Shown here piece after piece: positions 4,212-19,133 of a stretch of DNA of 38,948 nt. The first letter of the stretch is position 1; each line of letters starts with the position of its first letter. The notes beneath the pieces are model-generated. The model was given only the letters and a program-made list of their open reading frames with translations. It had not been told where the DNA came from and ran no database searches. This DNA comes from Verrucomicrobiota bacterium. GTDB lineage: Bacteria > Verrucomicrobiota > Verrucomicrobiia > Chthoniobacterales > UBA10450. Where the stretch lies: contig CADDYX010000005.1 in assembly GCA_902810735.1 (NCBI GenBank), positions 1 through 38,948 of the forward strand. The letters are read 5' to 3'. Both the position numbers and the translations under genes were made by a program.

Positions 4212-5585
4212 ATGGCGCTCGCCGACGAATTGCGGCGTTTGCTCGCAGACGAGATCGTCGCCGATGACGCGGAGACGCTCGCCGCGCATTCCGGCGATAA
4301 GTGGTTTGCGGCCGAACAACCGGAGGTCGTCGTTTTCGCCGAGAGGACGGAGCAGGTGCGTGCGCTGCTGCGCTTCGCGAACGAGCACCATGTCGCGGTG
4401 ACGGCTCGCGGTGCCGGCTACGGTTATGTCGGTGGTTGCGTCCCGGTGCGCCGCGGGATTGCGCTCTCGCTCGCGCGGATGAATCGCATCCGCGAGATCA
4501 ACTTCGCCGACGCGGTCGCGATCGTGGAGCCGGGCGTAATCACCGGGCAATTGCAGCGCGCCGTGCGAAAGCAAAAGCTGTTTTATCCGCCTGACCCAGC
4601 CAGCCTGGAGAACTGCACGATCGGCGGCAACGTGGCTACGAATGCCGGCGGGCCGCGGTGTTTGAAGTACGGCGTAACGCGAAATTACGTGGTCGGACTG
4701 GAGATTGTGCTCGCGAACGGCGACCTCCTGCGCACCGGCGGTCGCGTTCACAAAAACAAAACCGGTTTCGACCTGACCGGGTTGTTTGTCGGCTCGGAAG
4801 GAATGCTCGGCGTCGTGACGGAAATTACCGTCCGCCTAATTCCTCACCCGCCGGCGCGGGCAACGCTTTCCGCTGCGTTCGACACGATGCAGGAAGCGGC
4901 GGCGGCGGTGCAGGAAATTTTCGCGCGCGGCTTTCTGCCGTCATCGCTCGAGATCGCTGATCACTTCGTGCTCGAAGCTGCGCGGCGTGACGTCGGCACG
5001 GCGTCGGTGCCGGCCGGCAACGCGCATCTGCTCGTCGATGTCGATGGCCAGCTGGAGAGCGTCAGAGTCGAGATCGAATTGCTGCGCGAAATCGTGGAGG
5101 CGCGCCGCCCAAACTACGTCGAAGTCGCGACGGAAGAAGCTGATTGCGAGAAGCTGTGGGCGCTGCGCCGGCAGTTCAGCAACTCGCTTCGCGCAACCGG
5201 CCTGACCAAGCTGAACCAGGACATCGTCGTGCCGCGCAGCCATCTCGTGGATCTCGTCGAATTCGCGGAACATCTTCGCGCGAAATACGGATTTCCCGTC
5301 GCGACATTCGGCCATGCCGGCGACGGCAACATTCACGTCAACATCATGGCCGATCGGTACAACCGCGAGGCTGCGGTGCGCGAGCAGGTGGAACACGCGC
5401 TCGACGATTTGTTTCAACAGGTGCTCGCGTGGGGTGGAGTGATCACCGGTGAGCACGGAATCGGATTGGCGAAAAAGCGGTGGTGGCCGCAGGCGACAAG
5501 CGATGTCTCGCGCGAGCTGCATCGCGCGCTGAAACGCACGCTCGATCCGAATGGGATTCTCAATCCCGGTAAGTTTCTGGATTAG
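4212..5585 (+). CDS. FAD-linked oxidase, GlcD / D-lactate dehydrogenase type
   Basis: This encodes 457 residues, typical of GlcD-type FAD enzymes that oxidise 2-hydroxy acids such as glycolate or D-lactate. The PCMH-type FAD-binding domain spans about 35-215 with GAGYGYVGG, the adenine-binding stretch GGNVATNAGGPRCLKYGV, and VGSEGMLGVVTEITV. The C-terminal cap has the family signatures FGHAGDGNIHVNIM and GEHGIGLAKKRW, which contribute the substrate-site histidines. No GlcE or GlcF partner or Fe-S subunit lies next to it, so the electron acceptor is unknown. The ATG at 4212 is two bases after the ABM gene. The stop overlaps the stop of the convergent EEP gene by four bases. The exact substrate is not determinable here, so no symbol is given. 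Confidence 0.88.
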   Translation: MALADELRRLLADEIVADDAETLAAHSGDKWFAAEQPEVVVFAERTEQVRALLRFANEHHVAVTARGAGYGYVGGCVPVRRGIALSLARMNRIREINFADAVAIVEPGVITGQLQRAVRKQKLFYPPDPASLENCTIGGNVATNAGGPRCLKYGVTRNYVVGLEIVLANGDLLRTGGRVHKNKTGFDLTGLFVGSEGMLGVVTEITVRLIPHPPARATLSAAFDTMQEAAAAVQEIFARGFLPSSLEIADHFVLEAARRDVGTASVPAGNAHLLVDVDGQLESVRVEIELLREIVEARRPNYVEVATEEADCEKLWALRRQFSNSLRATGLTKLNQDIVVPRSHLVDLVEFAEHLRAKYGFPVATFGHAGDGNIHVNIMADRYNREAAVREQVEHALDDLFQQVLAWGGVITGEHGIGLAKKRWWPQATSDVSRELHRALKRTLDPNGILNPGKFLD

Positions 5586-6490
5586 CGCGACGACACTGCG
5601 AACGAGAGCGTCGCGTTGACCGGGCGGTGATCGCTTGATTGCGGCGCCGTTTCGCTGACCCACGCGCGCACCAGTGTTGCGCCGCGAAAGAAGATATGAT
5701 CGAAGCACGCGGGCGGAAACCGCTGGTCCGGCGGCAGCGTGATGCGGCTTGCGGCGGGGACATTCTGCCACGCCCAGGAAAATCCAGCGTTCGTCAGCGT
5801 CGGCACGGTCTTCTCGCCCGCAAAACGCCGATCGTCAGGCGCGGTGTTGAAGTCGCCGCCGACAACGCACGCGATTTGGCCCATCTTTCCGTACGCCGCT
5901 GTCATGGCGCTGATGTGCGAAGTGAGCTGGCGGAGAGACTCCTCGCGAAGGCGCATGTTCTCGTGAATTTCGCCGCGGTTGCTTTTCAGATGCAGCGCAT
6001 AAACCAGCAGCACCTTGCCGGGCGCGACATCGTAGGCAGCGAAGGCGAACCCGCGCGGCGGCGTGATTGGGTCGCCCGATTTCCACAACTCTGCCCACGC
6101 GCTAATCGGCTGCAGCCGGCTGGCGATTGCGACCTGCTGCGCCTCGTGCTGGCCTTCGCGCGGCGGAAAGTTCGAACAGACGTCGACTTTGAACCCCCGC
6201 AGCGGCTGCACGGCGAGCTCGGCGTTGTGCCAATCGCGAACCTCTTCCATTGCGACGACGTCTGAGGAAAACTGCGCAATATCACGATGCACTTCGCGGA
6301 CCTGGCGCTTCTCCTCGGCGGCCGAAGCATTTGGTCGCCGACCGGGAAACCACTGGATGTTCCAGAACGTGACGGTGATCGATGGCTGCGGCTGGCCGGC
6401 CGGCGGAGCGGCATTGTTCGGCGACTGCGCAGCAGCGATGGTTGCGCTCGCGGCGATCACGATCGCGAGCGCGCGTCCGCTGCACTTCAT
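5582..6490 (-). CDS. secreted endonuclease/exonuclease/phosphatase (EEP) family protein
   Basis: This encodes 302 residues with an N-terminal signal peptide (about 1-22, cleavage likely near AAAQS), so it acts outside the cytoplasmic membrane. The EEP fold is marked by TFWNIQWFPG (Asn44), MEEVRDW with the metal-binding glutamate near residue 82, GGDFNTAP about two thirds along, and SSDHRPVNATL near the end with the catalytic Asp-His pair. This family includes DNase I-like nucleases, sphingomyelinases and sugar or lipid phosphatases; substrate is not predictable here. I chose the ATG at 6490; a TTG one codon upstream is also in frame. It starts 16 bases after the exosortase stop on the same strand and probably belongs to that operon. 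Its 3' end overlaps the convergent FAD oxidase by four bases. Confidence 0.85.
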   Translation of the reverse strand: MKCSGRALAIVIAASATIAAAQSPNNAAPPAGQPQPSITVTFWNIQWFPGRRPNASAAEEKRQVREVHRDIAQFSSDVVAMEEVRDWHNAELAVQPLRGFKVDVCSNFPPREGQHEAQQVAIASRLQPISAWAELWKSGDPITPPRGFAFAAYDVAPGKVLLVYALHLKSNRGEIHENMRLREESLRQLTSHISAMTAAYGKMGQIACVVGGDFNTAPDDRRFAGEKTVPTLTNAGFSWAWQNVPAASRITLPPDQRFPPACFDHIFFRGATLVRAWVSETAPQSSDHRPVNATLSFAVSSR

Positions 6491-6506
6491 CAATGACAGA
6501 CGCCGC

Positions 6507-8069
6507 TCAACCCGGCTTCACGATGCGGCTGAGCTGCTCTCGCGCGGCTGCTTCGGCGGCAGCATCATCGTTGTAACCCCACGCCACAATTTCGAGCATC
6601 TGAGTCCCGACATCGCGCTTGCCTTGCTTGACCGCCTCCAGTCGCCCGGCAGCGGTCCAGTTTTCCGTATCCGACGCTGATTGCCGCTGCACCGTTCCAT
6701 CCCAGTAGCAGTAAAACACGTGCAGCGTTTCACCGTGGCTCTCGAAGACGTAGGATCGGATCGGTAACGCGACACCGTTCACCATCAACACGCGATTGTG
6801 AGCGCCGCCGCGTTGCGACATGCCGCTGGCCGGAAGACAAACATCCGGCCGGTGGTTCTTCACGAACAATCCGGCGGTCCGACCGGGCAACCAGCGGAAG
6901 AAATACATCGTCCAATCGTGGCCATCCGCGGCTGTCCAGGTGCCACCGCCGCCCTCGTTGTAACGCAAGAGCTCCTGTGCCGATTCGGCGACCGGGATGA
7001 CTTTCCATGCGTTCGCGTTGGTCGGCCATTGAACGCGCCATGGCTGCAATCGCGCGGTCGCCGCTTCGTGCATGCCATACCAAATCTGCGTTGCGCCTTC
7101 AGCAGAAATTGCGATTGCGAGCAGCGCGATGCTGAGTAGTCGCGGAATGCGGAATGGCGCCAGCCGATGCGGCTGTTCTGCATGGATATCTGGCGACAGA
7201 TTGCGCCGCAGAAACATGCTGATTGCCCAGAGCCCAAACAGACATGCGACGAGGATCGTCATGCCGGCGGGATCGTGCCAGCTCTTGATGGCTTGCGAGC
7301 CGTGCTCCGCACCCAGCCAAACGAGCAGGAAGGTGCGCGCGAGGTTGCAGAAAAACGCGAGGAATGCGCCGGCCACTACCAGCACGATGCGGCGCAGCAG
7401 GTCGAAGTTGTAAAATTCGCCGAGGAACAGCGAGACCATGAGCGTCGCCTGTAAGGAGCGAATACCGGTGCACGCTTCATCGATTCCGACGAACCCGGAG
7501 CCGACCTCGATGACATTGCCGAGCTGAACCGCCGGAATGCCGATCAGGTTCAGGATTTCGACATTCATTCGCGCGTCGACGCGCATCAGCCCCTGAATCA
7601 CGAACTGTTCGAGCTGGGTCGGCCACGGGACTGCGACCAGAAAAAACAGAATCGGGAATGCAAGGTGGCGCAGCCAGCGCGGGCCGCCGCACAAGTAGAC
7701 GGCGCCAGACGTGACCGCGACCGCGGACGCCGCCATGATCCAGCTCATCAACCGCCAGTCAGGATTCGCCTCCTGAATCACCCGCACTGGCAGCAACAAA
7801 AGCGCGGCGCCGAGCATCAGCGCGATCGCGGCGCCACGACGCTTCGGGCGGATCGGCGCGGGCGCGGTTTGCACCCGCAGCCAGAACAGATAGACAGCCA
7901 GGAACGGGACCGTCCAGCCGTAGCCGTATTGCGGATTAACGCTCCACTCGAGGCGCAGCCGCGCAATCAGCTCCAGCCAGACGAGCGCGACCGCAGCAAC
8001 GCCGAGCCAATCCACGGAATGCGCAGCTTTCGCTTCGGAGACCGGTTGGGTGAGGGTTGCCGCGTTCAT
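6507..8069 (-). CDS. exosortase fused to a C-terminal EpsI domain
   Basis: This encodes 520 residues. The N-terminal half (about 20-290) is an integral membrane exosortase with about eight hydrophobic segments. It carries the catalytic triad: Cys200 in EACTGIRSL, Arg245 in NLARTFLLVW and His265 in SWHDPAGM. After a linker and one more membrane segment (about 308-325) comes an EpsI-type extracytoplasmic domain with VKNHRPDVCLPASGM (Cys411). Exosortases cleave and anchor PEP-CTERM-like sorting tails, usually in species with exopolysaccharide loci; EpsI fusions are known, for example in the XrtD class. No protein in this window ends in a recognisable PEP-CTERM tail. The frame is open upstream with an ATG at 8129 and a GTG at 8168; I prefer MNAATLTQP at 8069, just before the first membrane region. 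It is divergent from a membrane TPR gene. Confidence 0.92.
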   Translation of the reverse strand: MNAATLTQPVSEAKAAHSVDWLGVAAVALVWLELIARLRLEWSVNPQYGYGWTVPFLAVYLFWLRVQTAPAPIRPKRRGAAIALMLGAALLLLPVRVIQEANPDWRLMSWIMAASAVAVTSGAVYLCGGPRWLRHLAFPILFFLVAVPWPTQLEQFVIQGLMRVDARMNVEILNLIGIPAVQLGNVIEVGSGFVGIDEACTGIRSLQATLMVSLFLGEFYNFDLLRRIVLVVAGAFLAFFCNLARTFLLVWLGAEHGSQAIKSWHDPAGMTILVACLFGLWAISMFLRRNLSPDIHAEQPHRLAPFRIPRLLSIALLAIAISAEGATQIWYGMHEAATARLQPWRVQWPTNANAWKVIPVAESAQELLRYNEGGGGTWTAADGHDWTMYFFRWLPGRTAGLFVKNHRPDVCLPASGMSQRGGAHNRVLMVNGVALPIRSYVFESHGETLHVFYCYWDGTVQRQSASDTENWTAAGRLEAVKQGKRDVGTQMLEIVAWGYNDDAAAEAAAREQLSRIVKPG

Positions 8070-8203
8070 CTGCGCAAAGAACCGTCGAAATGAGCAGAAT
8101 ACGAGCCCGCGCAGCACCGGCGCGGACATTGCTGTAGGTTGTACCGCAGCAGCCAACCGCTGGCACACGTCACGGAGCCGCGATAGCGTAACACTTCATC
8201 ACT

Positions 8204-9910
8204 GTGCAGAATCCACACGAAAAAATCGAGCGCTCGCTGCTGAAGGTCATCGGCTGGACCGTGGCCGTGATCCTGGTGCTCACGTTTGGCGGCATTTTTG
8301 GCTACCGCGCATTTTCTTCCTGGCAGCAACGCCGTCTCGTCGCGCAGGGAAACGCATTCGTGCAGCAGAACGATCTCAAGCGGGCGAACCTGAACGGCCG
8401 CCGGATTGTGCAGCTCAATCCTGAAAATCCGGATGGCTACCGCATCCTAGCCCGCGTCGCGGAAAAAACGGGCTCGCCCTCGGCGATCGATTTGCGGCGG
8501 CACGTGATGGAGATCGGTCGCGCGACCGACGAAGACCTTATCCTGCTGGCGCGTGACGCGACGCGATTTGACGATCCATCTACCGCCGAGAGTGCGATCA
8601 GTAAGCTTTCACCCGCAGCACATAACCGGGCGGATTTCCATGCATTGCTGGCAGAGATCGCCTACGCGCGACGCGACGGCAACGAAATGGAGCGCGAGCT
8701 CTCGGAAGCGCTGCGACTCGATCCGGCCAACAAAGATTACACCGTGCGGCTGGCGGCGTTGCAACTGAACGCGAGCGATTTCGAAATGAGCGAGCGCGGG
8801 CGCCAGACGTTGCTCGAGCTGCAGAAGGATCCCGAGACGCGCCGCGAGGCGACACGGCATCTGGCTGAAAACGCGATTCGGCGGAAGGATTTCACCACCG
8901 GCGCGAAATTCGCGAAGCAGCTCGACAGTTTCCCTGAGCGCACCTTCAGCGACCGGTTGCTTCTCCTGAGCGCGCTAAAAGGCGTCGACGACCCGGGTTA
9001 TGCGCAGCTGCTGCAGGACTTGGAGACGTCAGCGTTACAGGATCCGGAATCGATGGCTGCGCTCATCACCTGGATGAATGGCAACGCCATGTCGCAGCAT
9101 GCGATTGCCTGGAGCGCGAAGCTTCCGCCGCAGGCCATCAACGACAAACTGGTCGCGATCGCATTGTCGGACTCGTATATCGCCGCGCAAGACTGGGCCG
9201 GCCTGCAGCGCCTCACCAAAACCGGGAACTGGGGCAACGTCGATTTCCTGCGTAGCGCGCTCGCTGCGCGAGCTCTCCGGGAACTCGGCAATCAGCCCGA
9301 TTCCACCGCAAAATGGGCCGAGGCGGTAAACAAGGTCAGCGGCAACACGCGCCACACGCTGCTGCTCGCCGACACCGTCGGGAAATGGAATTGGCGCAAG
9401 GAAGCCATCGATCTGCTGTGGCTCGCGGCGGATGATCCGCTCAAAGGCGACGAAGCGTTGCAGACGCTCTACGCGTATTTCGCGAAGAACGGCGACACGC
9501 AAAATTTGTATCGCGTGCTTCTGCATCGCAACGCGCGGCATCCCGAAGACGCCAATGTCAAAAACAATCTCGCCGCGCTCTCGCTGCTGTTGAACATGAA
9601 TCGCGAACGCGGGTGGCAGCTCGCGCAGGAAGTTTACCAGCAGGACCCGCATAATGCCGCGTACGCGTCGACTTACGCATTCGCGCTTTACACCAAAGGT
9701 GAAAACAAAAAGGCGCTTCAGGCGATGGAGACGTTAACCGATCAGCAGCGGCGCCAGCCGGAAATCGCGGCGTACTACGGCATCATTCTTGCGGCAAATG
9801 GTGACAATGCACGCGCCGCGGAATTTCTCGATCTCGCGCAATCGGCGACGCTGTTGCCCGAAGAGAAAGAGCTCGTCCAGCGAGCCCGGCGGTCGATCGC
9901 GCAGGGCTGA
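8204..9910 (+). CDS. membrane-anchored TPR repeat protein
   Basis: This encodes 568 residues starting at a GTG (8204). A single membrane segment lies at about 16-36 (VIGWTVAVILVLTFGGIFGY), followed by a long all-helical region. TPR-like units are visible, for example around ALRLDPANKDYTVRLAALQL and YQQDPHNAAYASTYAFALY. The protein ends in a helical tail. Such proteins act as protein-protein scaffolds; long TPR proteins are regular members of exosortase/EPS gene sets (the PrsT group), but I cannot place it in a named family. It is divergent from the exosortase gene with 134 bases between the two starts, which suggests a shared control region. No Shine-Dalgarno motif precedes the GTG and no ATG nearby fits better. 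The intergenic end at 9911-10009 has only weak hairpins. Confidence 0.82.
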   Translation: MQNPHEKIERSLLKVIGWTVAVILVLTFGGIFGYRAFSSWQQRRLVAQGNAFVQQNDLKRANLNGRRIVQLNPENPDGYRILARVAEKTGSPSAIDLRRHVMEIGRATDEDLILLARDATRFDDPSTAESAISKLSPAAHNRADFHALLAEIAYARRDGNEMERELSEALRLDPANKDYTVRLAALQLNASDFEMSERGRQTLLELQKDPETRREATRHLAENAIRRKDFTTGAKFAKQLDSFPERTFSDRLLLLSALKGVDDPGYAQLLQDLETSALQDPESMAALITWMNGNAMSQHAIAWSAKLPPQAINDKLVAIALSDSYIAAQDWAGLQRLTKTGNWGNVDFLRSALAARALRELGNQPDSTAKWAEAVNKVSGNTRHTLLLADTVGKWNWRKEAIDLLWLAADDPLKGDEALQTLYAYFAKNGDTQNLYRVLLHRNARHPEDANVKNNLAALSLLLNMNRERGWQLAQEVYQQDPHNAAYASTYAFALYTKGENKKALQAMETLTDQQRRQPEIAAYYGIILAANGDNARAAEFLDLAQSATLLPEEKELVQRARRSIAQG

Positions 9911-10000: not shown

Positions 10001-10009
10001 TTGTCACGA

Positions 10010-10873
10010 ATGAAACCCGGGACGATCACACACACCATCGCGGTCTTGCTTTCATCGCTCTCCGCGCTGTTTACACACAGCGCGCCGGCTGCGTTGACGG
10101 ACGTGAACACGAAGGTGACGAAGAAGTCCGGAGAGAAGGAGCGCGGCAACCTGCTCACGATCGATCCGTACGCCTTTGCGCCGCAATCCGATCCGCCGAA
10201 ACCGGCAGCGGCGGCGGAGCGTTTCCCGTGGAAGAAAGAAATCGTGACGACGGTATTCTGGATCGGCGAGAAGCCGACCGCGAACAACCCGGTCCCGAAC
10301 AAATCAAGCTCGTGGGACAAGACGTGGACGCAGAGCTACGGAGGATTCGATAATCCCGACCCGGCGACGCGGAGCAATTTTATCCCGGTCAAATTCACGC
10401 CGAAACAAAATCCGTTCTATTGTGCGCTGCCTTACAACGACAAGGCAAAGGAGGGCCACCGGCCGGAAGCGCCGAGCGTGGTGCCGTGGTTCAAACAGGC
10501 GTATCAAGGGCCGGCCGTCTCGGTATGCAAAGGGCGCTGGGTTGCGATCCGCAAAGGCGACCGCGTCGCGTACGCGCAGTGGGAAGATGCCGGGCCATTC
10601 CGCACCGATCACTGGCAGTATGTCTTTGGAAACGAGCGGCCGAAGCCGAACCTGAACAAAGGCGCGGGCCTCGATGTTTCACCGGCAGTGCGCGATTACC
10701 TCGGGATGAAAGACACCGATGTGACCGACTGGAAGTTCGTCGAATTCAGCGAAGTGCCTCGCGGTCCATGGGCGCGGCTCGGCGATAACAACACGTTCGT
10801 GCAGAACAAGCGCAAAGCCTCCACCGCGTTGGTGGAAGGCGCGAAGCCGGGCGGCATCACGATCGTTCCGTAG
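10010..10873 (+). CDS. exported protein with double-psi beta-barrel-like region
   Basis: This encodes 287 residues. The N-terminus (about 1-28, TIAVLLSSLSALFTHSAPAA) looks like a signal peptide, so the protein is probably periplasmic or secreted. The central and C-terminal part (about 78-255) shows FYCALPYND, KGRWVAIRKGDRVAYAQWED, GPFRTDHWQYVFG, GAGLDVSPAVRDYLG and VEFSEVPRGPW. The G-[AL]-D-[VL]-S-P motif and the paired beta strands resemble RlpA/expansin-type double-psi barrels, some of which bind or cut cell-wall glycans. Two cysteines (138 and 173) could form a disulfide. The catalytic Asp of known RlpA or EG45 enzymes cannot be assigned with confidence. The ATG at 10010 is preferred over the upstream in-frame TTG at 10001. 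It is convergent with the histidine kinase, with 11 bases between stops. Confidence 0.7.
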   Translation: MKPGTITHTIAVLLSSLSALFTHSAPAALTDVNTKVTKKSGEKERGNLLTIDPYAFAPQSDPPKPAAAAERFPWKKEIVTTVFWIGEKPTANNPVPNKSSSWDKTWTQSYGGFDNPDPATRSNFIPVKFTPKQNPFYCALPYNDKAKEGHRPEAPSVVPWFKQAYQGPAVSVCKGRWVAIRKGDRVAYAQWEDAGPFRTDHWQYVFGNERPKPNLNKGAGLDVSPAVRDYLGMKDTDVTDWKFVEFSEVPRGPWARLGDNNTFVQNKRKASTALVEGAKPGGITIVP

Positions 10874-15330: not shown

Positions 15331-15915
15331 TCAGGGATTCGTAATCTCGATTTCCCAGCAACAAACGCCGAGGACCCGCGCGTCGTTGCCCTGATTGACG
15401 GATTTCGGCGACGTCGCTTTCGGCGTGTTGAGCTGCAGTTTCAAAACGCCGTTGCCTGATTTGACGACGTCGGCTGGGACGGTCGCGCGGAAATCGGCGA
15501 GCGAGCCGACTTGCCAATCCGCGATCTTGTGACCGTTCGCGAGCAGCTCGACCGGCTGCTGCGGGAACGAAGGCGGATTGATCATCGCAGACATTTTGAA
15601 TCGCACGTTCAGGGCAGAGCCGGCGGAAGAGACCGGAAACGAAAGTGTTGCGCTGTTGCCGAGCGACCAGGTGAAATTCGGTTCTGTGTCACCCCAGCCG
15701 GAGACGCGAAATTTCTCCGATCCGCCGCCCTGCCCGAAGTGGATCGTTTTGCCGACGACGTCGCGGACCGCCGCCGGCGCCGACGCTGCAGGAGGCGATT
15801 GAGCGCCGACGTGTAACGGAAGGTAAACTGCAGCGATCAGCGACGCGGCCGTCGTTTTGCCGCAGACACGAAAAATGAGATGACGCACGGAGCAACAAAT
15901 CTGGCAGCGCGCCAT
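15331..15915 (-). CDS. exported beta-sandwich-like protein, second copy
   Basis: This encodes 194 residues with a long basic, cysteine-rich N-region and a hydrophobic stretch (about 22-38) that looks like a signal peptide ending near VGAQS. The mature part is beta-rich. It is clearly homologous to the protein at 17098-17700: shared positions include HFGQGGGSEKF, SGW, FTWSLGNSATL, AMINPPSFPQQPVELL, DWQVG, RATVP, TSPKSVNQGNDARVLGV and the closing WEIEI. The pattern recalls the extracytoplasmic beta-sandwich domain attached to some membrane glycosyltransferases (I think of the DUF7024 type), possibly sugar-binding. The ATG at 15915 is chosen; a TTG two codons upstream is also open. It follows a PIG-V-like gene by 34 bases on the same strand. 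Function inferred from neighbours only. Confidence 0.75.
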   Translation of the reverse strand: MARCQICCSVRHLIFRVCGKTTAASLIAAVYLPLHVGAQSPPAASAPAAVRDVVGKTIHFGQGGGSEKFRVSGWGDTEPNFTWSLGNSATLSFPVSSAGSALNVRFKMSAMINPPSFPQQPVELLANGHKIADWQVGSLADFRATVPADVVKSGNGVLKLQLNTPKATSPKSVNQGNDARVLGVCCWEIEITNP

Positions 15916-15949
15916 TGGCAAGACAGATTTCGCTCGCGCGCCGCCGCCG

Positions 15950-17101
15950 CTACGTCATCCAGTAGCCGTTCGCGTAGAGAACAGTGCAGATTGTAAGCAG
16001 CGCGATCGAGGCCGAGAGCAGCGATTCGTAAAGCCACTCAAAGCGCGTCGTCAACAGCGCCATCACCAGGAAGAGCGGAAAGAGGACGCTCACGTTGCGA
16101 GTAATCGCTTCCAGGCTGTTGGACGAGATGTAAACGAGCAGGAAGACGGCGGCGTAAACCTGGTAGCTTGGCCGAACCCGAAACATCAACCCGACGATCC
16201 AGAGCGCGGCCGATGCGACGACGGTGCCAAAAAAAAGCCAGCGATAAAACTGCGGGTAGTGATCCCAGCCCGAGAGCGCGACTACCGGAGAAGTCAGTTT
16301 TCTACCCCACACCGCGGTGGCGTGAAAGAAGGCGAGCGGATCGTGAAAGCGCAGTTGGCCGTAGAGCATGAACAGCCCGAACCCCGCCGGCACAAGCGCG
16401 AACAACAGGATGCGCGGGTGAAACAGTTTCCGCAGGTTCAGTCGCTGGCCGTGTTCCGGCTGCAGGTACTCGACTAACAACGGTAACGCGATGAGCAGCC
16501 CAACCTGCCGCGTTGCGGAAGCGCAGCCGCCGAGCACACATGCAATCAGCCATCGTTGTTTTCGCGCCGCCAGAAATGCGCCGAGCACAAGCATCAGGAA
16601 TGTCGATTCGGTGTAAACGCTCGAGAAGAAGAACGCGACCGGACTGAACATGAGGAACAGCACGGCGCGTCGCGGGACCCGTCGGTCGTTCGAGTCGAGT
16701 TTCACCAGCTGGTAAAATAAAAGGCCCGCTGCGCAAAGGCAGGCATTGGCCGTGATCACACCAGCGAGCGGCGCATTCCGGACGATGTGATTGAGCAGTC
16801 GCACGAGCAGCGGGAAGAAGGGAAAAAACCCCATGCGCGATTGGTGTTCGGTGGAGAAATCGTAGCCGCCCCGAACGATGCTGAGGTACCAACCCGAATC
16901 CCACTGCGTCAGGACAGCCATCAGACCGCCGGGGTGCCAGAAATTGCCGCGGACGATCACCGTTTTCGAGAAAAGCATCAGCGCGAAGATCAGCAGTCGC
17001 GACGTCGCGAACATCGCGACGACCCAGAGCCACTCAACGCGCACGCGCGGCAGCGGACGCTCGCCCTGATGGGTGGCGCTGACGTCGTCGGCTGATCTCA
17101 T
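15950..17101 (-). CDS. PIG-V-like GT-C mannosyltransferase, copy 1
   Basis: This encodes 383 residues with about ten hydrophobic segments. The first extracytoplasmic loop has TQWDSGWYLSIVRGGY with the acidic residue Asp68, followed by GFFPFFPLLVR. This is the signature arrangement of PIG-V/GPI mannosyltransferase-2-like GT-C enzymes, which move a sugar (mannose in the eukaryotic family) from a polyprenyl-phosphate donor on the outer face of the membrane. Later features include SPVAFFFSSVYTESTFLML. It ends in ANGYWMT, exactly as copy 2 does. Its ATG (17101-17099) overlaps the TGA of the upstream beta-sandwich gene (ATGA), so translation is coupled. The acceptor is unknown; a surface glycan or exported protein is plausible. 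Compared with copy 2, it lacks one residue inside the WD motif loop. Confidence 0.87.
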   Translation of the reverse strand: MRSADDVSATHQGERPLPRVRVEWLWVVAMFATSRLLIFALMLFSKTVIVRGNFWHPGGLMAVLTQWDSGWYLSIVRGGYDFSTEHQSRMGFFPFFPLLVRLLNHIVRNAPLAGVITANACLCAAGLLFYQLVKLDSNDRRVPRRAVLFLMFSPVAFFFSSVYTESTFLMLVLGAFLAARKQRWLIACVLGGCASATRQVGLLIALPLLVEYLQPEHGQRLNLRKLFHPRILLFALVPAGFGLFMLYGQLRFHDPLAFFHATAVWGRKLTSPVVALSGWDHYPQFYRWLFFGTVVASAALWIVGLMFRVRPSYQVYAAVFLLVYISSNSLEAITRNVSVLFPLFLVMALLTTRFEWLYESLLSASIALLTICTVLYANGYWMT

Positions 17102-17700
17102 TGATCGCGCGGCGGCTCCGGCGAGCGGTCGATCACCAGCTCGTACACTTTCATGCCGAGACGACGATCATCACGGCCTTGACCCACTTCGGCCGGAGAA
17201 ATCGGCCGGCCAATGTGGAACTCAAATCGCACAATGCTCTCGTCCGGGTTCTGCATAAACTGCGGCGGAATTGTCGCGTTGTAGAATTTCGTCTGCGCGA
17301 TTTGCCAGTGCGCGAGCACCTTGAAATTCCCCGGCCGGCCAAATGGCTCGACGATCCGCACCTCGACCGGCTGAGCCGGCAATTTCGGCGGATCGACCAT
17401 TGCGCCCGCCTTGACGTGTAGAAATACCGGCGTCCGTGAAAAGCGAAGCCGACAGCCGAGCGATGCGACTGGACCGTCAGTCCAGGTGAACTCCTGTTCC
17501 ATCGCCGACCAGCCTTCGATCTCGAAGCGTTCCGCTTCCCCGCCGAGTCCGAACAGCACACGCTCGCCGTATTCATAAACGTGGGTGCGGGGCCGCGCTT
17601 CCGCGCTGCGCCGTTCGTTGTCCTTCCCGCACGCGCTGAAAAGCACCGGCGCCGCCGCGAGCAACAGAGGTGAAGCGAATCGAGCAAAGCGCGGCAGCAT
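17098..17700 (-). CDS. exported beta-sandwich-like lipoprotein, first copy
   Basis: This encodes 200 residues. The N-terminus (LLLAAAPVLFSACGKD) is a lipoprotein-like signal with Cys24; Phe at -3 is a less usual lipobox residue. The mature domain (about 45-195) matches the protein at 15331-15915: VLFGLGGEAERFEIEGW, EFTWTDGPVASL, AMVDPPKLPAQPVEV, HWQIAQ, NATIP, ISPAEVGQGRDDRRLGM and YELVID. The fold looks like an all-beta sandwich with possible carbohydrate-binding or partner role. The ATG at 17700 lies three bases after the stop of GT-C copy 2, and the stop overlaps the start of GT-C copy 1 by four bases, so all are one operon. Function is unknown; co-occurrence with GT-C enzymes is the main clue. 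Confidence 0.78.
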   Translation of the reverse strand: MLPRFARFASPLLLAAAPVLFSACGKDNERRSAEARPRTHVYEYGERVLFGLGGEAERFEIEGWSAMEQEFTWTDGPVASLGCRLRFSRTPVFLHVKAGAMVDPPKLPAQPVEVRIVEPFGRPGNFKVLAHWQIAQTKFYNATIPPQFMQNPDESIVRFEFHIGRPISPAEVGQGRDDRRLGMKVYELVIDRSPEPPRDQ

Positions 17701-17703
17701 TGC

Positions 17704-18969
17704 TCAGGTCATCCAATAACCGTTCGCGGACATGATCGTGAGCAAACCGAGGAGGCAGACCGAGCAGCCGAGCAGCGGTTCGTAACTCCACCTGAACTTC
17801 GCCGCGAGGAGCCCGAGCACGATGAACAGCGGGAACTCAACGCTGACGTACCTCGGAAACGCTTCGAATGTTGCCGAGCAGAGGTAGAGAAACGTCAGCG
17901 ATGCCGCAAATATGAGGTAGCTGGCACGAAGGCGAAATCCGACGCCGAGCAACAACAACAGCAGGGTGATCACGACCGTGCCGGAGAACAGAAGGTAGTA
18001 GAACGTCGTATACGTGCGCAGGAACGAGAGCGTGTGCAGGGGAGAGGTGAACGAACGGCCGAATACTTTCGCGGCATGGCTGAAAGCAAGCGCATCGTGG
18101 AACGCGACGAAGTCGTAAGCCATGTACAATCCGAGGCCGAGCGGCACCAGAGCAAGCAGCAGAATTCGGCGCTCGAGCAGCGCGGCGAGAGTACGGTCGG
18201 ACAACCACCAGTGCCTCAGGTATTCGAACGCCAATGGCAGCACGATGAGCACGCCCGGAGGGCGGGACGCGGCGAGAAGCATTCCCGCCAAACACGCGGC
18301 GAGCCATCGTCCTTTGCGCGCCGCAAAGAACGCGATCGTCGCCAGCATGAAGAAGGTCGATTCGGTGTAGGCGTTCGAATAGAAGAAGGCGACCGGGTTG
18401 AACAGGAACAGCATGACCGCAGCGCGGCTGACGCGCGGGTCTTTGTAATCGAGCCGCACCAGTGCGTTGAGGAAGAGCGCGGCGGTAAGCAGCGAAAGAT
18501 GTGAGACGACGAGCGCCGCGATCCGCAGATCGCGAAAAACGATCGAGAAGAGTTTGATCAGCAGCGGGTAGAGCGGAAAAAATCCGTGCGGCAGATGATC
18601 GCCGGCCGCGATGTGGTACCCGTGCCGCGCAATCTGGATGTACCAGAGCTCGCCGTCCCACTGCGTGAGGACGCTGACGAGTCCGCCCGGATGCCACCAC
18701 GCCGCATGCACCATCACCATTCGCGAGAGCACGATGATGGCGAAAATGATCAGCCGTGATGCAACAAATCCGGCGAATACAACTGCGGCGCCGTTGAAAA
18801 ACTGGCGCTGCTCCTCCTGCCGGACCCAATGACCGAGCCGGTTCTCGAACAACGCAAGGACGCGCGCGAGCGCGGCAGCAATGCGCGACGGCAGCAACGC
18901 CGCTGGCCAATTCGGCTGCGCGCTCTGCGGCCTTCGGGTTGCGGAGCTCGAGAAATGAGGAGAATCCAT
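17704..18969 (-). CDS. PIG-V-like GT-C mannosyltransferase, copy 2
   Basis: This encodes 421 residues from the ATG at 18969. About 55 mostly polar residues precede the first membrane segment. About ten membrane segments follow. The GT-C motif is TQWDGELWYIQIARHGY (Asp105) followed by HGFFPLYPLLIK, then NPVAFFYSNAYTESTFFML, all aligning with copy 1 at 15950-17101. The C-terminus is again ANGYWMT. Family knowledge predicts transfer of mannose or a related sugar from a polyprenyl-phosphate donor. The frame stays open to an ATG at 19038 and a TTG at 19077, adding an Arg-rich stretch; I could not decide firmly. It is the first gene of the minus-strand run down to 15331 and is divergent from a DPM1-like GT2 at 19134 that could supply the donor. 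Confidence 0.85.
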   Translation of the reverse strand: MDSPHFSSSATRRPQSAQPNWPAALLPSRIAAALARVLALFENRLGHWVRQEEQRQFFNGAAVVFAGFVASRLIIFAIIVLSRMVMVHAAWWHPGGLVSVLTQWDGELWYIQIARHGYHIAAGDHLPHGFFPLYPLLIKLFSIVFRDLRIAALVVSHLSLLTAALFLNALVRLDYKDPRVSRAAVMLFLFNPVAFFYSNAYTESTFFMLATIAFFAARKGRWLAACLAGMLLAASRPPGVLIVLPLAFEYLRHWWLSDRTLAALLERRILLLALVPLGLGLYMAYDFVAFHDALAFSHAAKVFGRSFTSPLHTLSFLRTYTTFYYLLFSGTVVITLLLLLLGVGFRLRASYLIFAASLTFLYLCSATFEAFPRYVSVEFPLFIVLGLLAAKFRWSYEPLLGCSVCLLGLLTIMSANGYWMT

Positions 18970-19133
18970 CGTCTTGCGCGACCGCGGGCGCCGCGACGAC
19001 AATCGCCGCAGGTCGTTTGAGCGCGCGATGGTACGCATAACGGTGCAGCCACGCAACTGCGCGCTGCTCGCGACCAAATTGCCAGTTGAGCCGCACCCAA
19101 AGTATGTGCTAACGGGGTAGGCTTCTCCTCAGC

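Follow-up and report, generated by a model that had tools for sequence, protein, structure and literature searches.

A clade of EpsI-fused exosortases in Chthoniobacterales and its candidate non-PEP sorting tail, encoded away from the enzyme

Exosortases are membrane enzymes believed to cleave secreted proteins and to direct their sorting through a C-terminal tag. For the PEP-CTERM/EpsH system, the relevant sections of Haft et al. 2006 (PMC1569441) describe a multi-pass exosortase with Cys, Arg and His residues and secreted proteins whose tails consist of a motif, a transmembrane (TM) helix and a basic stretch. Some of the systems include a TPR protein (PrsT), and the C-terminal fusion of the enzyme to an EpsI-like region had already been recorded there. 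According to the same sections, the EpsI domain is of no known function.

The enzyme analysed here and its candidate targets resemble this scheme. The window, by which we mean the whole 38,948-nucleotide stretch of DNA that was analysed, is the entire contig C5 of a soil bacterium's assembly of 310 contigs (3.01 Mb, 96% complete). Its exosortase is best read as a member of a separate group of EpsI-fused exosortases found in Chthoniobacterales, here called clade I. Based on the comparison of genomes, clade-I exosortases probably pair with a non-PEP sorting signal of their own, a rule to which there are exceptions.

The exosortase/EpsI-like fusion and its surroundings

The enzyme is encoded on the minus strand and is 520 residues long when read from its ATG. 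A GTG at 8168 is an alternative start that would give a 553-residue reading; Met-Asn-Ala at the ATG of the shorter form was also read in 5 of 15 orthologs aligned with the window protein. The features of the gene are:

6507..8069, minus strand: exosortase/EpsI-like fusion (open reading frame, Pfam/NCBIfam profiles, ortholog alignment)
7215..7997, minus strand: exosortase domain PF09721 (E 1.0e-46, 159.6 bits)
7470..7472, minus strand: codon of C200, the proposed nucleophile (EACTG), invariant in 16/16; position counted from the ATG at 8069
7335..7337, minus strand: codon of R245 (NLxRT), invariant in 16/16
7275..7277, minus strand: codon of H265 (WHDPAG), invariant in 16/16
6822..6854, minus strand: EpsI motif HRPDVCLPASG, residues 406-416 (alignment)
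6510..7049, minus strand: EpsI-like C-terminal domain, about residues 341-520 (profiles below cut-offs; predicted PsbP/DcrB/Eag-like fold)

A previous reading of this DNA from its sequence only had named Cys200, Arg245, His265 and HRPDVCLPASG as present, and the alignment bore this out; the view in that reading that the enzyme looks active fits the findings. All three residues were unchanged in the window enzyme and its 15 orthologs, which are 49-67% identical to it (alignment A2, covering 16 of the 19 proteins that make up clade I in the tree below), as was H406-R-P-D-x-C-L-P-A-x-G416, with S415 nearly so.

The protein was accepted by Pfam PF09721 (157.4 bits, cut-off 25.7) and scored 52.5 bits against signature TIGR04178 (cut-off 23), while its NCBIfam TIGR02602 score of 107.1 bits was only just over the cut-off of 105.55. 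The EpsI part fell under both curated cut-offs (TIGR02914, 16.2 vs 42.8; PF11984, 18.5 vs 26.1), and we therefore use the name EpsI-like, given on motif and position only. Subtyping with the TIGRFAM exosortase models, as the sequence-only reading had proposed, was carried out but did not settle the subtype. None of the NCBIfam subtype models that matched (XrtA, B, C, D, J, M, N, O, R, T, V, W, X and cyanoexosortases A-C) reached its cut-off, and the top score was 122.2 bits vs a cut-off of 400 for XrtD (TIGR04152), which aligned with residues 75-519 of the 553-residue reading.

A tree of 75 exosortases contained four supported clades, with some rows outside them on long branches. Clade I (19 rows, support 100/100) included the window enzyme, clades II and IV had 7 and 9 rows, respectively (each 100/100), and clade III had 15 rows at 100/99 or 17 rows at 98/97. 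Clade III includes a second exosortase/EpsI fusion of the same genome, on contig C176, that is 39% identical to the window enzyme.

In the predicted structure of the window enzyme (pLDDT 78.2), residues 21-288 held nine helices of at least 17 residues, forming a multi-helix membrane domain. The predicted model had no PDB match at E<=0.001, and a second structure comparison returned no coherent list of folds for the membrane half, although this half may have a known fold. Near the top of the PDB comparison, most entries were of one fold family and matched the C-terminal region, from about residue 341 or 370 to residue 520; those listed were LpqN, DcrB, PsbP and two Eag chaperones, SciW and EagT6. 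Foldseek probabilities for this part were mostly 0.96-1.00, yet E-values ran from 0.0025 to about 0.1, and VIA-align gave Z 7.1-10.1 at rmsd 3.9-5.7 (DcrB, SciW, PsbP, LpqN, EagT6); only DcrB (Z 10.1) stands clear, because unrelated chains on other parts of the model reach Z 7.6-7.7. The titles of some SciW entries in the PDB describe a complex with an effector transmembrane domain. From the predicted model we infer that the EpsI-like domain may hold the TM helix of a tail, a shared fold in itself showing no function. The match offers a concrete hypothesis for a domain to which PMC1569441, in the sections cited above, gives no function.

The genes next to the enzyme are:

8204..9910, plus strand: TPR protein of 568 residues, divergent partner of the exosortase gene, with an N-terminal membrane anchor read from sequence (Pfam TPR)
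5582..6493, minus strand: secreted-looking endonuclease/exonuclease/phosphatase-family protein, the next gene on the same strand as the exosortase, without a sorting tail (PF03372, 64.6 bits)
10001..10873, plus strand: secreted-looking protein of 290 residues past the TPR gene, with a relative in 7/7 other subclade-Ia loci

A relative of the TPR gene lay within 89 bp of the exosortase gene, frame to frame, in 17 of the 19 clade-I loci, and the TPR protein may be an adaptor. It was not seen at the remaining two loci (L090, L068); since the genomes concerned (G018, G012) keep both enzyme and tail, the TPR partner may not be strictly required. A 1147-residue open frame in locus L086, considered as a fusion, was rejected because its coordinates indicate that it runs antisense through the TPR gene.

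The seven other subclade-Ia loci had neighbours in common with the window as far as their contigs reached, and in each a relative of the endonuclease/exonuclease/phosphatase-family gene adjoined the exosortase. The 290-residue protein had no Pfam match at E<=0.001. Further along the window (15331-19077, minus strand), two PIG-V/mannosyltransferase-like membrane proteins (PF04188) alternate with two open reading frames (ORFs) of about 200 residues; in L084 and L096 the two pairs find their matches in one and the same set of genes, a possible tandem duplication.

Candidate sorting tails

According to the sequence-only reading, no PEP-CTERM-like tail is encoded near the enzyme and its targets must lie elsewhere. 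Searches of the window agreed with the first statement: a genome-wide PF07589 search (E<=10) found no PEP-CTERM tail there, its sole match being on another contig, the tail profile described below had no window match at E<=1e-5, and a motif-based scan of ORF ends gave no candidate. Hydropathy scanning of the window ORF ends returned three ends of membrane proteins without a basic tail and one 88-residue frame antisense to a gene; in this GC-rich DNA such scans, filtered only loosely for proline, yielded numerous short or antisense frames, and we did not rely on them by themselves. The hunt for targets in the genome was by profile searches, by which tails unlike the profiles used could be missed.

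The single PEP-CTERM tail of the genome is on contig C176, in the second gene downstream of the clade-III exosortase. It scored over the cut-off for PF07589 (22 vs 20.7) and just under it for TIGR02595 (15.3 vs 16). At this locus (L003, G000:C176, 920-5224) the exosortase/EpsI fusion, a TPR gene and the PEP-CTERM protein follow in a row.

We took from relatives 60 stretches around exosortases with open frames of at least 515 residues and scanned their ORF ends. Two clade-I loci, L073 and L079, encoded secreted-looking proteins with PIPEA-type tails. A first profile, built from these two tails, which lie near two orthologs (genomes G010 and G020), was searched against 58 genomes. It picked out two proteins on contig C13 of the genome that holds the window, at E 5.7e-10 and 1.2e-8, as well as a tail in G018 (E 2e-11), a genome of 30 contigs whose sole PF09721 match is a clade-I enzyme. 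A 17-row profile (A3), made from tails of clade-I genomes only, gave two matches in the window's own genome, the best at E 1.8e-20; tails of G001, G003, G008, G009, G011, G015, G022 and G029, and some clade-I tails (e.g., of G028 and G035), were left out of it. The genome-wide tail search that the sequence-only reading had called for thus returned candidates, and its placing of the targets elsewhere fits with two candidates on C13 that share a non-PEP tail and one PEP-CTERM protein on C176. The two candidate targets, identified by the tail profile, are:

C13 26185-26955, plus strand: tailed protein
C13 3612-4313, plus strand: tailed protein

Their C-terminal ends are GVTPVPEMSALFPILGLMVAVGSTHILRRRRMARVSA and EIPPVPEMNALLPVIGLLAAIAMADALRRRRLARS. 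Both proteins end in a tripartite tail, made up of the motif, a TM helix and a basic cluster (the profile match stops 1-3 residues short of the C-terminus), of the type P[VI]PE-M-S-A-L-F-P-I, transmembrane helix, RRRR. Their N-termini, read by eye, look like typical signal peptides, and the mature parts match no known family. The first belongs to a conserved group (10 aligned, of which three are from genomes without a clade-I enzyme). No PDB entry resembled the predicted model of the C13 protein P0002 (pLDDT 62.9) in a meaningful way; the best match had E 0.01 and a TM-score of about 0.2. Elsewhere the part before the tail can be of another kind: the tailed protein of G018 (L156 9991-10686, minus strand) has a Ser/Ala-rich low-complexity mature part rather than the conserved one, and in G067 (L258 8848-9543, plus strand) the region preceding the tail also looks different. 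The 10 ORFs scanned around the C13 genes were mostly housekeeping-like, with one exostosin-type glycosyltransferase and no polysaccharide cluster seen among them.

Neither PF07589 nor TIGR02595 matched the C13 tails at E<=10 in the genome search, and none of 10 tail proteins had an NCBIfam or Pfam family over cut-off, HMMER filters being able to drop weak matches to short models. The border with PEP-CTERM is not sharp, because TIGR02595 also picks up two weaker tails of the C13 type (G034:C173, G058:C74), at scores near its cut-off. The name of VPEID-CTERM (TIGR04161) suggests a related Val-Pro-Glu signature; this model had no match over its cut-off of 33 bits in any of six genomes, and the C13 proteins were not among its weak matches. 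Literature searches by topic and by motif letters revealed nothing, among the matches listed, on a tail of P[VI]PE...SALFPI type. The tail is new in the sense of being absent from the literature searches made or from Pfam/NCBIfam matches over cut-off.

The stretches also showed which tails lie beside which enzymes. In clade II, a gene with an F/LTPVPE(I/M/V)NPA-type tail, followed by a helix and a basic end, was within 308 bp of the enzyme at six of seven loci (L100, L103, L104, L107, L110 and L122; L104 and L107 have two such genes). In clade IV, a gene on the opposite strand with a VP(V/I)PE(M/V)SAL-type tail, again with helix and basic end, was within 57 bp at seven of nine (L098, L111, L112, L114, L115, L117 and L118). 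PEP tails were on the stretch at 7 of 17 clade-III loci and PIPEA-type tails at 2 of 19 clade-I loci; the other 17 clade-I loci showed no target on stretches of 6.5 to 38.9 kb, several locus stretches being short contigs.

Distribution of enzyme and tail, and alternative readings

Across 83 genomes of the family, a clade-I enzyme was found in 25 and a clade-I tail in 34; 21 genomes carried the two together, 4 had an enzyme without the tail, 13 a tail without the enzyme, and 45 neither. The tail was thus present in 21/25 genomes with the enzyme vs 13/58 without it (Fisher p 2.5e-7 over the 83 genomes, with relatedness ignored; the co-occurrences are not independent events because most of the genomes are fragmented, related assemblies). 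At E<=1e-5 tailed genomes had one or two tails, and four at most (G002). By genus, the counts were:

g3: 3 both, 1 enzyme only, 3 neither
g7: 6 both, 1 tail only, 1 neither
g10: 3 both, 1 tail only (motif lost), 1 neither
g14: 5 both, 1 enzyme only
g6: 1 enzyme only, 3 neither
g4: 8 tail only, 3 neither
g5: 34 neither, 1 enzyme only
seven one-genome genera: 4 both, 3 tail only

A clade-I enzyme was the sole PF09721 match in five genomes (G018, G027, G034, G058 and G059), four of which had the tail.

The enzyme count used E<=1e-150, so broken clade-I copies were missed by it. A search of the 13 tail-only genomes and two controls with the window protein recovered a clade-I gene in three frame-broken pieces in G011, where the tail is present, and a C-terminal remnant in G009. 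Tails with an intact motif and no clade-I enzyme occurred in genus g4 (8 of 11 genomes), G008 and G069, the latter two 85 and 88% complete. Other exosortases are present in some of the g4 genomes and may act on the intact tails there; no exosortase at all was found in the g4 genomes G063 and G064. The enzyme occurred without a tail in G027, G071, G017 and G103 (89, 66, 73 and 68% complete). These enzyme-only and tail-only genomes imply that the pairing is not exclusive, or that the assemblies are too gappy to tell.

Pro-Glu was kept in 33/33 tails of clade-I genomes (among them G028:C41, a tail beside a clade-IV enzyme) and in 12/12 tails of other tail genomes, and was in register in 0/4 tails of G001 and G009, which have two tail-like ORFs each; the count covers 49 of the 51 tail matches, G058:C74 and G059:C131 not being included. 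The helix and basic end of these four ORFs still match, and the ORFs are also short (96-179 residues). No exosortase match was found in G001. The G009 remnant corresponds to residues 265-523 of a congener's exosortase, and is thus without the Cys (209) and Arg (254) while keeping the His (274) and the EpsI motif. The locus itself (L255, G009:C58:214000-230000, 6136-9886) is decaying, with a nearby TPR gene split over two frames. No other observation hints as strongly that Pro-Glu is important to the clade-I enzyme as this loss of the motif, which was seen in two genomes only.

These distributions bear on whether the window exosortase instead acts on PEP-CTERM proteins, with the P[VI]PE tails being mere membrane anchors or belonging to another enzyme. 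Such a reading would account for the one PEP-CTERM protein in the genome, for G027, where a clade-I exosortase only is accompanied by 7 PEP-CTERM matches and no clade-I tail, for the g4 tails without a clade-I enzyme and for the two weaker tails that TIGR02595 reaches. We consider it unlikely, however. The sole PF07589 match is placed downstream of the other exosortase, G018 has the tail alongside a clade-I enzyme alone and gives no match to PF07589 at E<=0.05, Pro-Glu has gone from all four tails in two genomes without an intact enzyme, and comparable non-PEP tails lie directly beside clade II and IV enzymes.

The same adjacent pairs in clades II and IV, in which the type of tail follows the clade of the enzyme, argue against the idea that both types of tail are common to the genome's two exosortases and that the differences between clades are drift without specificity; so does G018, where one enzyme and one tail type were found and no sharing is needed. 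The elements common to the tails (Pro-Glu, TM helix and basic end) and the genomes with a tail and no matching clade speak in favor of sharing, which we judge to be rather improbable. That the window enzyme is a relic without substrate, as the lack of a nearby target and the truncation of a related gene in G009 might suggest, is very hard to reconcile with catalytic and EpsI motif residues that are invariant in 16/16 proteins at 49-67% identity and with the candidate targets in the genome.

Proposed pairing and comparison with described systems

The most likely explanation is a clade-I exosortase with its own non-PEP signal. Its substrates would be one or a few secreted proteins whose genes lie elsewhere in the genome, and the enzyme would recognise them by P[VI]PE(M/A/L)SALFPI, the transmembrane helix and RRRR. 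These proteins would be exported by their signal peptides and then held by the C-terminal helix, C200 would attack at or near Pro-Glu to cut the tail, and the cut protein would be passed to a surface acceptor. The steps of export, holding, attack and transfer are adopted from the family scheme as it is outlined in PMC1569441.

A wider reading, which we offer tentatively as a possibility, is that soil Verrucomicrobiota run parallel, mutually specific exosortase channels. The fused clades would each read their own tail dialect (PVPEMSALFPI, FTPVPEINPA, VPVPEMSAL or PEP), and the fused PsbP/DcrB/Eag-like EpsI domain could be a chaperone-like receptor of the tail's TM helix that helps to set the choice of tail. 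Enzyme clades with distinct tails, several of them per genome in some relatives, are a natural test set for how exosortases read tails. PEP-CTERM models are the usual means of counting the targets of exosortases; the models tried here miss likely targets, and an apparently orphan enzyme consequently has candidates after all.

Set against the PEP-CTERM/EpsH system, the tail in the window's genome differs in being of the P[VI]PE(M/A/L)SALFPI type and not Pro-Glu-Pro. XrtD, which is specific for VPLPA-CTERM, is the top-scoring subtype model for the window protein; the score is, however, far under 400 and the two C13 tails do not read VPLPA. Rhombosortase and GlyGly-CTERM (PMC3237569) involve an enzyme family unrelated to exosortase. 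The likeness, from what that paper reports on the pair, is in a tripartite tail and an enzyme paired by co-occurrence, with enzyme and target mostly adjacent when there is one target.
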